Below, one piece after another: positions 29,433 through 36,800 of a stretch of DNA of 36,800 bases (position 1 is its first letter; every line of letters starts with the position of its first letter). The DNA comes from Bacteroidota bacterium. Lineage in GTDB: Bacteria > Bacteroidota > Ignavibacteria > UBA10030. The notes under the pieces are model-generated. The model ran no database searches. It was given only the letters and a program-made list of their open reading frames with translations, and was not told the DNA's origin. The stretch lies in assembly GCA_021813905.1 (NCBI GenBank), contig JAKAJH010000033.1, positions 1 to 36,800 of the forward strand, given 5' to 3'. The position numbers and the translations under genes are program-made.

Positions 29433-29825
29433 TTATCGCCGTCGCTCCGTGTATTCCACTTCCACGTAATCCAGAACGCCTTTGATCGGCGCATTCGGCT
29501 TGCGCACGTGCACCGTCACCTGCACCACCCGACGGAATTCCTTGAGGATGGTGGACGTCACGGATCGGGCCAGCGCCTCCAGCAGGAAGTGCTTTCGGTC
29601 CACCACGGCGCGTCGGACACAGTCGTACACTCTCTCGTAGTCCACCGTGTCCTTCAGGTGATCGCTCACTGCCCCTTTCGAAAGATCGCACTGCAGCTCC
29701 ACGTCCACCTGGAACTTGCCGCCCAGATTCTGTTCATCGCTCAGGACACCGTGATACGCGTAGAACACCGCGTTCTGAAGACGGATGATATCAAGTGGAC
29801 GTTTCTTCGCCATCGTCTCGCTCAC
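29433..29825 (-). CDS. folB: Dihydroneopterin aldolase
   Basis: 130 residues with the FolB pattern: IRLQNAVFYAYHGVLSDEQN, the pterin-binding tyrosine/histidine region, FQVDVELQCDLSKG, the catalytic DTVDYERVYDCVRR, and the C-terminal strand VQVTVHVRKPNAPIKG. It cleaves dihydroneopterin to hydroxymethyl-dihydropterin. The GTG start overlaps the gltX stop (GTGA); the ATG four codons later (29811-29813, MAKKRPLD) is an alternative. It is translationally linked to gltX. Confidence 0.95.
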   Translation of the reverse strand: MSETMAKKRPLDIIRLQNAVFYAYHGVLSDEQNLGGKFQVDVELQCDLSKGAVSDHLKDTVDYERVYDCVRRAVVDRKHFLLEALARSVTSTILKEFRRVVQVTVHVRKPNAPIKGVLDYVEVEYTERRR

Positions 29826-31273
29826 CGGACAGGAATACGTTCGACCGCGCTCCGCAAGCGTCGCACCACCGCGTCGCGGCCCAGCAATTCCATCATCTCA
29901 AACAATCCCGGACCTCCCGTGCGTCCGGAGACCGCCAGCCGCGTGGGATGAATGATCTTCCCCGCTTTGATTCCCCACCGCTCCGAGAGCAGGCGCACAC
30001 AGCCTTCGATGGAGGGATGATCGAACATCGCGAGGGACGCCAGCTCGTCGGCCAGCGTCGTGATCCGTCCCACCGCCTCCGCATCCCAGCTCTTCTTGAC
30101 GCCCGCGTCCTCGTACTCGTCGGGATCGCGGAACAGGTAGAGACCGTTCTCGATAAACTCAGGCAGCAGCGTGACGCGCTCGCGCATCAGTCCGATGGCC
30201 CGCTGCAGGTACTCATCGGTCACGTCGGTGATGCCGCGGGCCGCGAGCATCGGACGGAGCATCGCCGCGATCTCGGCCGCGGGCTTGAGTTTCAAATGCT
30301 GCTGATTCAACCAGTTGAGTTTATCGACGTTGAACACCGCACCCGACTGGCCGACCCGCTCCAGCGTGAAGGCCTCCGTGAGCTCCTGCATCGAGAAAAT
30401 CTCGCGCTCGTCGCCCGGATTCCAGCCGAGGAAGGCGATGAAGTTCACCATCGCCTCTTTCAGATACCCCTTGGTGCGATAGTCCTCGACCGCCACATCC
30501 CCCTGGCGCTTGCTCAGCTTCGACCGGTCGGGATTGAGCAACAGCGGCAGGTGCGCCATCTGCGGGACGGACCATCCGAAATATTGATAGAGGAGGATGT
30601 GCTTCGGCACGCTCGGGAGCCACTCCTCGCCGCGAATGACGTGCGTGACGCCCATGAGATGATCATCGACCACGACCGCCAGATGGTACGTCGGGAAGCC
30701 GTCCGACTTCAGGATCACCTGATCGTCCAGCACGTTGTAGCCGATCGTGACATCGCCGCGGATGATGTCGTGAAACGTCATTTCCCCCGTGAGCGGCACT
30801 TTCATCCGGACGACGCGCTTCTCGCCGGCGGCGATCCGCCGGGCAGCGTCCGCCGGTGATAGATCGCGGCAATGCCGGTCGTACGCCACCGCCTGTTTCG
30901 CGGCCATCTGCTTTTGGCGAATCTCATCGAGCCGTTCGGGCGTGCAGAAACAGGAGTACGCCGTGCCGGCATCGATGAGTTGCTGAACGTGCGAATGGTA
31001 GATCGGAAGGCGCTGCGACTGGACGTACGGCCCGACGTCCCCTTCCCGCCCGGGACCTTCGTCATACTCGATGCCCGCCCAGCGGAGGGTTTCGATCAAA
31101 TTCTCGACCGCTCCTTCCACCTTGCGTGCCTGATCAGTGTCTTCGATGCGCAGCACGAAGCGTCCGTTATGCCGACGCGCGAAGAGGTAATTGTAGAGCG
31201 CGGTGCGAAGCCCGCCGACATGCAGGTAGCCGGTGGGGCTGGGGGCGAAGCGCACGCGGATCTGATCGTTCAT
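29822..31273 (-). CDS. gltX: Glutamyl-tRNA synthetase
   Basis: A 483-residue class I synthetase from the ATG at 31271-31273 (MNDQIRVRFAPSPTGYLHVG). The HIGH-equivalent is GYLHVG (about 15-20) and the KMSKS-equivalent SKLSKRQG (about 245). A helical anticodon-binding region fills the C-terminal third. It makes Glu-tRNA-Glu; a dedicated GlnRS next door means it need not mischarge tRNA-Gln. It leads the operon gltX-folB-folK-kinase-DUF4834-like. No clear Shine-Dalgarno. An intrinsic terminator lies in the leader, 22 nt before the ATG. Confidence 0.97.
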   Translation of the reverse strand: MNDQIRVRFAPSPTGYLHVGGLRTALYNYLFARRHNGRFVLRIEDTDQARKVEGAVENLIETLRWAGIEYDEGPGREGDVGPYVQSQRLPIYHSHVQQLIDAGTAYSCFCTPERLDEIRQKQMAAKQAVAYDRHCRDLSPADAARRIAAGEKRVVRMKVPLTGEMTFHDIIRGDVTIGYNVLDDQVILKSDGFPTYHLAVVVDDHLMGVTHVIRGEEWLPSVPKHILLYQYFGWSVPQMAHLPLLLNPDRSKLSKRQGDVAVEDYRTKGYLKEAMVNFIAFLGWNPGDEREIFSMQELTEAFTLERVGQSGAVFNVDKLNWLNQQHLKLKPAAEIAAMLRPMLAARGITDVTDEYLQRAIGLMRERVTLLPEFIENGLYLFRDPDEYEDAGVKKSWDAEAVGRITTLADELASLAMFDHPSIEGCVRLLSERWGIKAGKIIHPTRLAVSGRTGGPGLFEMMELLGRDAVVRRLRSAVERIPVR

Positions 31274-31295
31274 GGGAGCCGTCGATGCACCGCAC

Positions 31296-31325
31296 AAAAA
31301 AAGCGTCTCGACCTTCGAAACGCTT
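31296..31325 (-). terminator. gltX leader terminator (attenuator candidate)
   Basis: Minus strand AAGCGTTTCGA (31325-31315), loop AGG, TCGAGACGCTT (31311-31301; one G-U pair) followed by seven T in all. An 11-bp stem with U7 is as strong as any terminator in the window. The next gene upstream, glnS, points the other way, so there is no minus-strand transcript for it to end except gltX itself. Confidence 0.85.
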
Positions 31326-31410: not shown

Positions 31411-31443
31411 GGTGAACGGATCGCCGGCATCGGCCGGAGGTCG

Positions 31444-31473
31444 TTGGATAATCGTGCGGTTTTTTCCTATTTT
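31444..31473 (+). promoter_or_regulatory. Putative glnS promoter
   Basis: Plus strand TTGGAT (31444-31449), 18 bp, TATTTT (31468-31473). Transcription would begin near 31480, leaving a 25-nt leader before the ATG at 31505. It is back to back with the gltX promoter, 34 bp apart. Confidence 0.45.
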
Positions 31474-31504
31474 GAAAATGAACCAACATCATTCCTCTCC
31501 GCCC

Positions 31505-33193
31505 ATGCCGACACCTGAACGAAACGACTTCATCCGCGATATCATCGCCAGCGATCTGCAGACCAGCAAGTTCGAGGGACGCGTTCACACCCGCTTCCCT
31601 CCCGAGCCGAACGGATACCTCCACATCGGCCATGCAAAGTCCATCCAGCTGAATTTCGGCATCGCCCGCGATCACAACGGCCTCTGCAATCTGCGGTTCG
31701 ACGACACGAACCCGGAAAAAGAGGAGCAGGAGTACGTTGACTCGATCGTGCGCGACGTCGAATGGCTTGCCGGCGACCTGAAGGGACGGATCTATTTCGC
31801 CTCCGACTACTTCCGGCAGATGTACGATTGGGCCGTCACGCTCGTGCGCGAGGGAAAAGCGTACGTGTGCGATCTGAACGCCGACGAGATCCGGCGCACC
31901 CGCGGAACCCTCACGGAACCCGGCAAGGAAAGCCCGTACCGCAACCGGAGTATCGACGAGAATCTCGACCTGCTGGACCGCATGCGCCGTGGCGAGTTTC
32001 CGGATGGCTCCAAAACGCTTCGGGCAAAGATCGATATGGCGTCGCCGAATATCAATCTGCGCGACCCGATCATGTACCGCATCGTCCACGAGGCGCACCA
32101 TCGTCAGGGCGACGCGTGGTGCATCTACCCCACGTATGACTGGGCGCACGGACTGGAGGATTCGATCGAGCGCATCACCCATTCGATCTGCACGCTGGAA
32201 TTCGAAAACCATCGGCCGCTCTACGACTGGTTCCTGGATGCGCTCGGGATCTATCACCCGCAACAGATCGAGTTCGCGCGTCTGAACCTGAGCTATACCG
32301 TGCTCAGCAAGCGGAAGCTCCTGCAGCTGGTGCAGGAACGACACGTCTCCGGATGGGACGATCCCCGCATGCCGACCGTTGCCGGCTACCGGCGGCGCGG
32401 TTACACGGCAGAATCCATCCGGGTCTTCTGCGATCGGATCGGCGTATCGAAGAAGGACAGCATCATCGACGTGGCAACGCTGGAGTGGAGCATTCGCGAA
32501 GATCTGAACGCCCACGCCCGGCGGGCAATGGCCGTTCTGCGTCCGCTGAAGGTCGTTCTGACGAACTACCCCGAGGGGCAGACCGAGGAATTGCCCGCTG
32601 TCAACAATCCCGAAGATGAGTCCGCCGGCTCGCGCGTGATTCCCTTCGGTCGCGAGTTGTACATCGAGCAGGACGATTTCCGCGAAGTCCCTCCGCCGAA
32701 GTACTATCGCCTCTCCCCGGGTACCGAAGTGCGGCTCCGTTACGGCTACATCATCAAGTGCGAGAAGGTTATCAAGGACGCGAGCGGGGCGATCACGGAA
32801 CTGCACTGCACGTATGATCCCGAGACAAGAAGCGGCTCACCGGCCGCGAATCGGAAGGTGAAATCCACGATCCACTGGGTGTCGGCGAAGCACGCGGTGA
32901 ATGCGGAAGTGCGGCTCTACGATCGGCTGTTCATGAAGGAAGATCCGAACGACGCGGAAGAGGGGAAGGATTTCCTTTCGAATCTGAATCCCAACTCTCT
33001 GGAAGTCCTGCGCTATTGCAAGCTCGAGCCGATGCTCGGCTCGGCGGCTCCCGGCGATCGGTTCCAGTTCGAGCGTATGGGATACTTTTGCGCCGACAGC
33101 GCCGATTCGAAACCGGGAGCACCGGTCTTCAACCGGATTGTCACGCTGAAAGACACTTGGGCGAAGATCGAGCAAAAAGGAAAGCCGGGGTAA
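31505..33193 (+). CDS. glnS: Glutaminyl-tRNA synthetase
   Basis: 562 residues, close to E. coli GlnRS (about 554). The ATG at 31505 gives [19 protein letters not shown], aligning with the family start; an ATG at 31478 is at or before the predicted transcription start and is less likely. HIGH motif in [16 protein letters not shown] (about 35-50), KMSKS-equivalent [10 protein letters not shown] (about 265-275), and a two-barrel C-terminal anticodon domain. It charges tRNA-Gln directly. It is the only clear plus-strand gene in the window, divergent from gltX, and ends about 70 bp before the convergent tRNA-Ser. No terminator was seen after it. Confidence 0.96.
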
Positions 33194-33260
33194 GTCGTAC
33201 TGCTCGAAAGAAGGGGGAAACGAAGATCTGCTGGAGGAAGATTCGGGGGGATTACTTCAG

Positions 33261-33351
33261 CGGAGAGGGGGGGATTCGAACCCCCGATAAGGGCTTACAC
33301 CCCTATAACGGTTTAGCAAACCGCCGCCTTCAGCCACTCGGCCACCTCTCC
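33261..33351 (-). tRNA. tRNA-Ser (GCT)
   Basis: Class II tRNA, 91 nt. Acceptor GGAGAGG/CCTCTCC with discriminator G, D arm with GAGTGGCTGAAGGC, anticodon stem GCGGT/ACCGT with loop TTGCTAA (anticodon GCT), long variable arm, T arm GGGGG-TTCGAAT-CCCCC. Confidence 0.97.
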
Positions 33352-33560: not shown

Positions 33561-33578
33561 CGAGTCATAACGGATTTG

Positions 33579-33791
<213 letters not shown>

Positions 33792-33962: not shown

Positions 33963-34313
33963 TTACTCGGTAACAGTCACAATCACAGGACCGGACGGTC
34001 GGTGAACCGCTTCCTGGAAGGCGTCGGACGGAATTTCGGTTGAAGTCGGCGCGGGCTCATCCCCCACGTTGCCGTCATCCGAATTCGGCACGGGCGTAAC
34101 CGTAAACTTCAGAAGCGACAAGGACTGCACAAAATTGCCCGTGGGTTGATCGGAAGAAAGACTGTTCAGCTGCACACTCGTCACGCGAAGTGTCGGACGT
34201 TGCACCCCGAACGACACGATCTGTTTGACCTGAGGATTGTCCTGCGCCCGCGCTACACTCGCCGAGCCCCAAAGCACAAAAGCAAACAGGATGATGATGG
34301 CCGCGCGCGTCAT
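33963..34313 (-). CDS. Small secreted protein of unknown function
   Basis: 116 residues with a clear signal peptide (IIILFAFVLWGSASVARAQ). The mature part is threonine/valine-rich and likely beta-structured (VKQIVSFGVQRPTLRVTSVQ), with an acidic middle (NSDDGNVGDEP), and ends in a beta strand (GPVIVTVTE). I do not recognise a family. It starts 7 bp after the preceding secreted protein, and both lie downstream of the beta-barrel/SPOR gene, so they may be its exported clients or partners. This is inferred from position only. Confidence 0.75.
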   Translation of the reverse strand: MTRAAIIILFAFVLWGSASVARAQDNPQVKQIVSFGVQRPTLRVTSVQLNSLSSDQPTGNFVQSLSLLKFTVTPVPNSDDGNVGDEPAPTSTEIPSDAFQEAVHRPSGPVIVTVTE

Positions 34314-34320
34314 CGTGGGT

Positions 34321-34893
34321 TCAGTTCGTCAGTGTGAGTGTGACGGTCCGCGACTGCGTCGGGATCTGCCCGACCTCCGCGTCCGCCGCGAACGTGTAGG
34401 TGATCTGCTGATCCCGTTCACTTCCCCGCCCGATCGCCGTCACGACATCCACCGGGCTGACCGCGCCGGAGAGGTCGACGTCGCCGGTGCTCACCGCCTT
34501 GGCGGTCGAAAGCCGGACAAGTAACCTCGTGCCACTCGGCATCGGATCGTCAATCGAAGCCACGATCTTCATCTGATCAACGTTCGTGACCAGATCGTAC
34601 CGCGTGGAATAGTCGCTGACGGTCGTGAGCGAAGAACCGGGCACGGCATCATTGATCAGAAGAAGACCCGGGTCGCCGTTCACGACCAGACGGGCCACGG
34701 GCTTGACTTCAAGGGTGAGGGATTGCGCTGCGGTGCTTCCGGCATCCTGTGCCCGCACCGAAATTGAGACAACTAGAAGGATCGACGCTATGGTCGAGAG
34801 CGTTCGCACGCGGTGGAATGGCACTCGCAAGAAATGAAAGTCCCGCGCAAGAGTCAAGCGAAAGTTGGCAGTTGATGTCTTTCGGAGTTCCAT
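34321..34893 (-). CDS. Secreted Ig-like beta-sandwich protein of unknown function
   Basis: 190 residues. The ATG at 34891-34893 (MELRKTSTANFRL) follows GGGGAG by 8 nt and is preferred to the ATG seven codons upstream. A long basic N-region precedes the signal hydrophobic core (TLSTIASILLVVSISVRAQ). The mature part (about 140 residues) is a likely beta sandwich: SLTLEVKPVARLVVNGDPGL, TRYDLVTNVDQMKIVASIDD, GTRLLVRLSTA, ending QSRTVTLTLTN. The layout is reminiscent of fimbrial-type or coat-protein subunits, but no family is recognised with confidence. The gap to the upstream barrel gene (34894-35089, about 195 bp) shows no gene. Confidence 0.8.
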   Translation of the reverse strand: MELRKTSTANFRLTLARDFHFLRVPFHRVRTLSTIASILLVVSISVRAQDAGSTAAQSLTLEVKPVARLVVNGDPGLLLINDAVPGSSLTTVSDYSTRYDLVTNVDQMKIVASIDDPMPSGTRLLVRLSTAKAVSTGDVDLSGAVSPVDVVTAIGRGSERDQQITYTFAADAEVGQIPTQSRTVTLTLTN

Positions 34894-35089
34894 TGTCGTT
34901 CTCCCCTTTTTCATACAACTCGAATGCCAGGGAGATCCGGCAACGGATTTGATCCCGACCGCCTAACGCTTTGATTTAGAAAGAGTTGACGAGAGGTTGG
35001 AAGAGCAGAGAGGCCCGGCCACAGGCTACCGGGAAGATTCTACAATCGCACTCTCCGCGAGGGGCGGTTTCATACTCTTTTGGGAACCC

Positions 35090-36800
35090 TCAGTGCAGAC
35101 CGGAACGATTCGACATCTCGGGACAAAGGGCCACCGCTTCTGCGCGCGTGCGGAAGGGACCGATGAGCACATGGTAGCGGATCCCGAGTTCCAGCACCGT
35201 CGCCGGCTCAACAGAAACGGGATAGCCGATGATGGCTTCGATCTCACGCGCCACGCGATTCGCTTTCGACCGAGTAGTCCACGAAGATGTCTGAACAACG
35301 TAACCCTTCCGCCGCGCATCATAGTAGACCAGACACGTCGGACGGAATGCTTCCATCAACTTAACTTGCGCAGGCGCGGGAAGTTTTGCGCTTTCGGACG
35401 CACGCGGGGCAGGCGTCGGCGCTTCGGGAGGACGAACCGGCGTGACCGGCGCTGCTGATTTCTCTTCCTTCAACACCTGTCCCTGCTCCAGCATACGGAT
35501 CGCGCGACGACGCGGTCGCAGTTCAAAGGTAACCTCTGTGCGCTCGGCCGGCCGGAGTACCAGACGAATTGAATCCGGCGTGACCACGTGCAGGGGCGGA
35601 ACATCTCCGCCAGCGATCCGCACGATCCACGTTCCGGGACGGAGATCCGCAAACGCGAACCGGCCTCGATTGTCGGTGACACGGCGCAGCACATCCGAGC
35701 CGTTGCTCAGCTCGACAAACAACCCCGCCCGACCGCCCCGCTCCACGATCGCGGTCGAATCCCCGCCGAATTCGCGCGCCGCGTTGTCGAACAACAGGAC
35801 GCTTCCCTGAACGCCGACGCTTCGCGTCACATGGAGGTCCCGCCGCACGTCCATCCCGCCTTCAATGAGGACTTCCATTGGCAGTTGTTCAAGCGTGATG
35901 CGGTCCAGGCCGATGCTGGCCTGATCAACTGTGAGGTAGACCGCTCCCGGCTTCAGTCCGGTGAGCGAGTACTCACCCTGTCCGCCTGTCACGGCCGCAC
36001 CGGTTCCCGCACTCACAAGTACATTCGGAAGCGGCCCCCCCGCCTCATCCGTGATCCGTCCGTTCACGGTGCCGGCTGAGGTGATCCGGCGAACCGGGAT
36101 CGCCACCGGAATGGCATACTCGATCACATAGGCGACATCGGCCACGGTCGTTGTAGTCGCGATCGCGCTGTACCGTCCCCGCAGGGAGATCGTATGGTTG
36201 AACGGAAAGACATGTTCGACGGATCCCTCCACGAGCGCATAGGTCTGATCCGTGGACGACCGGATGCGACTCAGATAGCCGTTCACCTCCGCCATCGTTG
36301 CCTGTCCCAGCAGAAGTGAGGTCGAAATCGCCGCGGATGTCCGGTCCTGAGATTCGTTCGTGTAGACACTTTGGTCGCTCGCATATTCGATGGACGAGGT
36401 CATATTCAGTGTACCCGCCGGTCGAAGCCCGACCGAGAGCGAGTACCGGCTGGACGGGAAGGCGCGTGCCTGCAAGTCGTCACGCACGGATCCGACATCG
36501 GCGTCCGCGAAGATGCTGACCGCGTCAAAGTTGTGGCCAACGCGCGCCTGCACCGCGTCTTCATGCCTTCGGTACTTCGATGCCGGGAACAGATCTTCCT
36601 GACTCGTGTACCGATAGTAGAGCGTGATCAGGTCTGCATAGCCGCCGCCGATCTGAAGGTACCGGTCTCGCGGGGCATAAATCTGGTTCGTGTCCCTTCC
36701 AAGATTCCGCTCTTCCTGCCGGACGTATCCTTCGATGCGAAATCTCGATCCCGGCCGGAGGTTGAAGCTCCCGGAATAGAAATTCAGATCGCGATAGTAT
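35090..36800 (-). CDS. Outer-membrane beta-barrel (usher-like) protein with SPOR domain, 5' end outside window
   Basis: The frame is open to the right edge; 569 residues of the C-terminal part are visible. First comes an array of short amphipathic strands with aromatic ends (YRDLNFYSGSFNLRPG, RYLQIGGGYADLITLYYRY, YALVEGSVEHVFPFNHTISL), typical of an outer-membrane barrel. Then a carboxypeptidase-regulatory-like domain at about 36080-35910 (GTVNGRITDEAGGPLPNVLV, GEYSLTGLKPGAVYLTVD), a second similar domain at about 35810-35560 (DNRGRFAFADLRPGTWIVRI), a proline-rich linker, and a C-terminal SPOR domain at about 35340-35090 (YVVQTSSWTTRSKANRVARE, YHVLIGPFRTRAEAVAL). SPOR domains bind denuded peptidoglycan. 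Barrel plus Ig-like domains suggests an usher or large porin; the missing N-terminus would decide. Confidence 0.75.
   Translation of the reverse strand, partial: YYRDLNFYSGSFNLRPGSRFRIEGYVRQEERNLGRDTNQIYAPRDRYLQIGGGYADLITLYYRYTSQEDLFPASKYRRHEDAVQARVGHNFDAVSIFADADVGSVRDDLQARAFPSSRYSLSVGLRPAGTLNMTSSIEYASDQSVYTNESQDRTSAAISTSLLLGQATMAEVNGYLSRIRSSTDQTYALVEGSVEHVFPFNHTISLRGRYSAIATTTTVADVAYVIEYAIPVAIPVRRITSAGTVNGRITDEAGGPLPNVLVSAGTGAAVTGGQGEYSLTGLKPGAVYLTVDQASIGLDRITLEQLPMEVLIEGGMDVRRDLHVTRSVGVQGSVLLFDNAAREFGGDSTAIVERGGRAGLFVELSNGSDVLRRVTDNRGRFAFADLRPGTWIVRIAGGDVPPLHVVTPDSIRLVLRPAERTEVTFELRPRRRAIRMLEQGQVLKEEKSAAPVTPVRPPEAPTPAPRASESAKLPAPAQVKLMEAFRPTCLVYYDARRKGYVVQTSSWTTRSKANRVAREIEAIIGYPVSVEPATVLELGIRYHVLIGPFRTRAEAVALCPEMSNRSGLH

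Follow-up and report, generated by a model that had tools for sequence, protein, structure and literature searches.

A predicted chaperone-usher-type fibre assembly operon with a SPOR-tailed barrel at a contig end of an Ignavibacteria genome

Gene content and context of the locus

The DNA analysed (the window) was the whole of one contig, G000:C26, with a length of 36800 bases, and its positions end within a barrel gene. This gene was read as a minus-strand open frame of 569 aa (35090-36799) whose 5' end is open, the contig stopping at 36800. Two small genes, b2 and b3, follow it on the same strand. The features of the locus are listed in Table 1. Short ORFs overlying the two tRNA-Ser genes were considered as artefacts of tRNA sequence. 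The two aminoacyl-tRNA synthetase-like genes are direct neighbours in divergent orientation, and a GluRS-like gene is also close to the locus in one relative (L034).

Table 1. Features of the window and of the adjoining end of contig C4 (L058 coordinates)
Feature	Position	Strand	Basis or remark
Glutamyl-tRNA synthetase-like gene	29822-31297	-	
Glutaminyl-tRNA synthetase-like gene (GlnRS)	31412-33193	+	
tRNA-Ser (gct)	33260-33351	-	between GlnRS and b3
tRNA-Ser (tga)	33578-33663	-	between GlnRS and b3
b3, truncated secreted protein	33963..34313	-	116 aa; N-terminal extension and final strand retained
b2, secreted candidate fibre subunit with donor-strand-like N-terminal extension	34321..34914	-	197 aa; conserved beside the barrel; model
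SPOR domain, C-terminal (peptidoglycan-glycan binding)	35102..35338	-	PF05036, E=2.6e-8
Pro/Ala-rich linker	35339..35479	-	sequence; homologous L033 linker has pLDDT <50
Two carboxypeptidase-regulatory-like domains	35480..36094	-	PF13620, E=5.5e-13; limits approximate
Barrel gene, beta-barrel 3' half	36095..36799	-	open at the contig edge; aligns to full-length relatives
C4-window overlap	36788..36800	-	13-nt exact match ATACTATCGCGAT, reading frame continuous
sub1a, major subunit (b2 family)	L058:6264-6764		second b2-family copy just after
sub2	L058:7320-7880		start uncertain
sub3	L058:7891-8442		
sub4, subunit without donor strand	L058:8439-8915		
Chaperone	L058:8925-9752		directly 5' of the barrel
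Barrel gene, rejoined	L058:9761 onward, then window 36799-35090 (-)		

The earlier note had suggested that a chaperone might lie to the right of the window, the direction in which the N-terminus of the barrel was to be sought. Both were located in the same genome, where contig C4 ends, using the chaperone and barrel of a relative as query: a two-Ig-domain periplasmic protein, present also in relatives, and the 5' half of the barrel gene, which supplied about 460 N-terminal residues (L058:9761-11152). The last 13 bases of C4 are the first 13 of the reverse complement of the window, and the frame reads through the join (...AGYYRD / YYRDLNF...). The adjacency of the two contigs was based on this overlap, the reading frame and synteny with relatives, reads being no part of the basis. 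The rejoined barrel is about 1029 aa long (C4 part plus window part).

From 5' to 3', the rejoined operon contains sub1a, a second b2-family copy, sub2, sub3, sub4, the chaperone, the barrel, b2 and b3, i.e. two major subunits, two minor subunits and one subunit without donor strand, plus b2 and b3. The order subunits, chaperone, barrel, b2, b3 is kept in relatives. Of the relatives that have a name, an Ignavibacteriae MAG (RPQN01000158.1) is the closest, and the scan of the genome contigs led to a single relative.

A regulator with a GAFTGA motif, predicted from its sequence to be a sigma54 activator, is encoded upstream of the operon on the other strand. In seven of nine loci, TGGCAC-N-TTG sites lie no more than about 80 bases from the major subunit; in this genome the site is at L058:6196, with 68 bases between it and the probable start. 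Against a background of 0.11 sites per 500 bases, this gives p about 4e-10, an indicative value, the pattern having tolerated two mismatches and the search interval having been picked after the sites were seen. Transcription of the operon is probably sigma54-dependent. A separate promoter for b2 was rejected, as no consistent sigma54-type site was found upstream of this gene.

Subunits and chaperone

The gene b2 adjoins the barrel in same-family loci, with 46-58% identity, and its start codon is probably further downstream. The AlphaFold model of b2 (pLDDT 85.7, core >90) is a seven-strand beta sandwich with the N-terminal extension outside the sandwich. No sequence match in the PDB and no Foldseek fold match at E <0.001 were obtained for b2. 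The Foldseek matches to the PDB are individually weak, with pilins at E about 0.004-0.05, but donor-strand subunits (CfaB, Caf1, FimA, CsuA/B, CanA) are over-represented among them. After the signal peptide, sub1, sub2, sub3 and b2 have a common N-terminal stretch of alternating hydrophobic residues (e.g. QATATQTVTLAVNxVYKI). This extension is absent from sub4, directly before the chaperone, in 10 of 10 aligned relatives as well as in this genome.

The earlier note had described two signal-peptide proteins with likely Ig-like folds after the barrel. Both are present on the same strand and b2 is modelled as a beta sandwich, but b3 is truncated and does not provide a second Ig-fold subunit. When nine b3 proteins were aligned, the two ends were conserved and the body was full-length in L037 only; with conservation limited to both ends, an Ig-like fold is unsupported for the b3 of this genome. 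In known systems a donor strand is absent from the tip subunit, and the terminator is unable to take one up. By analogy with these roles, sub4, without extension, is the strongest tip candidate, and b3, without body, is a candidate terminator or base subunit.

The chaperone has two Ig domains and was given no name by Pfam or NCBIfam: PapD_N was not matched and PF06030 reached just 0.016. A profile of 26 chaperone sequences matched the Enterococcus faecium WxLIP (EfmWxLIP1; PDB 9i25/9i1y, chain residues 28-252) over 220 positions with E=4e-12, stronger than any PapD. A single hhalign comparison with 12 PapD-like chaperones of K-12 gave 95.8% (E=7e-9, 209 columns). Two unrelated comparisons used as negative controls, neither of them an unrelated two-Ig protein, gave <1%, and part of the PapD-like score may reflect shared fold. 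Stand-alone chaperone homologues without a barrel were also seen in one group (L098, L099, L117), beside a response regulator.

WxLIP has two Ig domains and is predicted to put a hairpin strand into the gap of its WxL partner, thereby completing the partner's sandwich, and to hold WxL on peptidoglycan (PMC10599100). The locus could accordingly be read as a WxL-like wall display moved into diderms, in which the WxLIP-like protein, instead of serving as an assembly chaperone, stays bound and fixes the small proteins on peptidoglycan, with the barrel anchoring the complex via SPOR or LysM. The full-length match of the chaperone to EfmWxLIP1 and the recurrence of wall-binding domains on the barrels fit such a display. 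However, window-type chaperones end at the last strand (..FGAQYTLKF, alignment A4) and have no C-terminal transmembrane helix after the second domain, unlike WxLIP. In addition, paralogous subunits with N-terminal extensions and one without are polymer-like, and the subunits gave no WxL family match and no sequence match in the PDB. This reading is unlikely.

The barrel, its wall-binding tail and its relatives

The carboxypeptidase-regulatory-like domains (two copies) and the SPOR tail named in the earlier note were both recovered by Pfam. Within the carboxypeptidase-like region, PF15976 (CooC_C) was matched weakly, with E=7.5e-4 and under the curated cut-off, and the two domains occupy the position of the C-terminal domains of ushers. 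Across the chaperone, the subunits and the barrel, Pfam and NCBIfam gave above their cut-offs just CarboxypepD_reg, SPOR, LysM and NEW3-like domains in some homologues. The segment ahead of CarboxypepD_reg aligns, from roughly residue 465 onward, with relatives of full length at 34-45% identity, a region made of barrel strands in the AlphaFold model of the L033 homologue. In this model (mean pLDDT 82.7, pTM 0.47, 17 sequences), two N-terminal Ig domains precede a barrel of about 26 strands, as counted by hand from the DSSP assignment; two beta domains come next, followed by a disordered linker and, at the C-terminus, SPOR. No plug domain is inserted among the consecutive strands of this model.

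The L033 barrel was compared with the PDB using Foldseek. The eight best matches were all FimD (E 1.5e-13 to 5.6e-12), and PapC was also matched (E 1.4e-10 and 1e-7). LptD, MtrB and porins ranked lower, with E about 1e-6; sperm and ciliary Ig-repeat proteins scored between these two sets because of the Ig domains in the barrel protein. Superposition of the model on FimD was poor (TM 0.26-0.33), and the label 'usher-like' therefore stands on match ranking and not on superposition. No Pfam match to ushers (PF00577) was found, and direct usher homology by profile comparison was dropped, hhalign against nine K-12 ushers giving 24%. The usher-like barrel of the earlier note thus holds as a fold resemblance to FimD and PapC, but not as a detectable sequence homology to Pfam ushers. 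Neither a TonB receptor barrel nor a plug was matched in Pfam or among the 50 best PDB folds.

The SPOR domain scored 34.5 bits (Pfam cut-off 21), and a local SPOR profile gave 1.2e-33 on the window copy, the window itself being part of that profile. In the window's family, 14 window-type homologues, counting the window, have one SPOR or more; L035 has two copies and L044 has three. The domain is missing from the homologues L037, L051 and L052 and from the order-level L046. Elsewhere, SPOR was found in L089 and L100 and LysM in L095, L096 and L118, and the barrels of L102, L103 and L105 end after the C-terminal domains. Since SPOR and LysM are unrelated peptidoglycan-binding modules at the same place, wall binding is the likely function of the barrel tail. 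Usher C-terminal domains are periplasmic; with an even strand count, the SPOR domain should therefore be periplasmic. A peptidoglycan-binding domain was found on none of the nine K-12 ushers, and to our knowledge no chaperone-usher usher with such a domain is known. In RlpA, the SPOR domain contacts denuded glycan through Gln Q270 and Arg R309 (PMC6895207). The equivalent of Q270 is retained in the window copy (YVVQTSSW); at the R309 position, aligned by hand, the window appears to have His (RYHVLIG), and most relatives have Arg. Window-type barrels with 300-400 extra C-terminal residues matching no wall-binding family were also observed (L090, L091, L092, L093).

The operon is conserved in Ignavibacteriota and other Bacteroidota. 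Of 61 relatives, 19 gave a strong match to the barrel; the chaperone was found in 17 and the b2 family in 24. Each of the 17 genomes that encode the chaperone encodes the barrel too (hypergeometric p=3e-13), and in the two barrel genomes without chaperone the barrel is cut by a contig end. The b2 family is present in all 19 barrel genomes, and the small secreted genes, whose lack of co-occurrence would have spoken against the earlier note, do accompany the barrel. The association persists within family f1 (p=2.5e-7 and 7e-5), with shared ancestry remaining in the test. In a phylum sample, the chaperone profile matched 31 of 395 genomes, and the loci that were opened mostly contained subunits, chaperone and barrel together. 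More distant Bacteroidota loci (L107-L116) carry repeated subunits of about 181 aa and a 930-aa barrel related to the window barrel (profile 99.9%), and several have an extra protein of about 478 aa, perhaps a tip adhesin.

Other barrels from the same bacterial groups, those of L047, L049 and L114, are usher homologues (98.4% to K-12 ushers, E=1e-14, profile comparison). SPOR domains were also seen on these proteins (L114:8197-11712, L047, L049), together with TPR repeats in L049. On these profile matches, the classical sequence family, too, includes ushers with a SPOR tail. Within genus g9, genome G030 (L033) has a window-type barrel and genome G009 (L049) an usher homologue. The two barrels align over the last 104 residues only (linker and SPOR, 51% identity), and the b2 proteins adjoining them are 75% identical. 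Read most simply, these alignments mean that one platform took the place of the other while the tail and the subunit were kept, an argument for the window-type barrel and the usher homologue doing the same job.

A TonB receptor, a porin or LptD as the main reading was ruled out by the fold ranking, the gene partners and this replacement; a large outer-membrane channel of unrelated origin (LptD-, MtrB- or porin-like), accompanied by stand-alone secreted or wall-associated beta proteins, is very unlikely, for although 26 strands are also found in LptD and MtrB, MtrB superposes about equally (TM 0.28, against 0.26 for FimD) and the barrel is without usher sequence signal, FimD accounts for all of the eight best structural E-values, the barrel strictly co-occurs with chaperone and subunits, and an usher homologue takes its place in g9 with b2 kept.

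Proposed assembly system and its significance

The end of the window was interpreted as the 3' part of an operon whose products would assemble fibres in the manner of a chaperone-usher system, with a probability of roughly 0.78. In the best reading the barrel is the usher analogue of this system, tethered to peptidoglycan. The proposal of the earlier note, a chaperone-usher-like system with a SPOR-tailed usher, gains support from the chaperone on C4, the FimD/PapC fold ranking and the co-occurrence of the genes. The two major b2-family copies, the two minor subunits and b2 would reach the periplasm via their signal peptides, where the WxLIP/PapD-like two-Ig chaperone would hold the incomplete beta sandwich of each subunit. 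In the outer membrane, the 26-strand barrel would receive the chaperone-subunit complexes, and polymerization into surface fibres would occur by donor-strand exchange, the N-terminal extension of one subunit inserting into the next, with sub4 as putative tip and b3 as putative terminator. At the periplasmic C-terminus of the barrel, SPOR would bind peptidoglycan, by which the platform would be tethered to the wall, perhaps where cells divide.

Archaic and alternative chaperone-usher pili (Csu, Ecp, CS1) share with the locus the operon logic of subunits, chaperone, usher and further subunits, the csu operon having the order csuA/B-A-B-C-D-E. They also share the two-Ig chaperone, small beta-sandwich subunits with N-terminal extensions and the usher-like barrel fold, and EcpC has a similar CarboxypepD/CooC_C-like C-terminal domain. 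In contrast to their ushers, the window barrel is not PF00577-similar, has no plug, has about 26 rather than 24 strands and carries a wall-binding tail, and the PapC_N of ushers is replaced by two N-terminal Ig domains. The system would work like a chaperone-usher system; it may be a branch that has diverged from these or one that runs parallel to them. The WxL/WxLIP clusters of Firmicutes resemble the locus in that its chaperone is homologous to WxLIP along its length, and WxLIP is predicted to complete its partner's sandwich with a strand (PMC10599100). They differ in having no outer membrane or barrel, in the membrane helix of WxLIP and in their WxL domains, which were undetected here. Type V (Fim/Mfa) pili of Bacteroidia are donor-strand fibres in the same broad bacterial group (PMC5954841). 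Unlike the present system, with ordinary signal peptides (by eye), a chaperone and a barrel, they are made from lipoprotein precursors with no chaperone or usher.

In the excerpted text of PMC4654587, classical and alternative systems are placed in beta/gamma-proteobacteria and archaic systems in proteobacteria, Cyanobacteria and Deinococcus-Thermus; Bacteroidota do not appear in the ranges given in the excerpts of PMC4654587 and PMC9452303. No description of SPOR ushers, Ignavibacteria ushers or Bacteroidota chaperone-usher systems was found in the open-access literature, which is weak evidence of absence. A wider proposal, given slightly less than an even chance, is that of a distinct, Bacteroidota-wide platform class with a barrel non-homologous to classical ushers, interchangeable SPOR or LysM tails as anchors on peptidoglycan and a chaperone family linking WxLIP to PapD-type chaperones.

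Through its SPOR tail, the platform would be held on the wall, and fibres could come to be positioned at sites of division. The range of chaperone-usher-type systems would extend to Bacteroidota, beyond the lists excerpted from PMC4654587. The likeness of the chaperone to both WxLIP and PapD bears as a test on the common ancestry of monoderm wall display and diderm pilus assembly; if the family does bridge WxLIP and PapD-type chaperones, the strand complementation of WxLIP and that of pilus chaperones would have a common origin.
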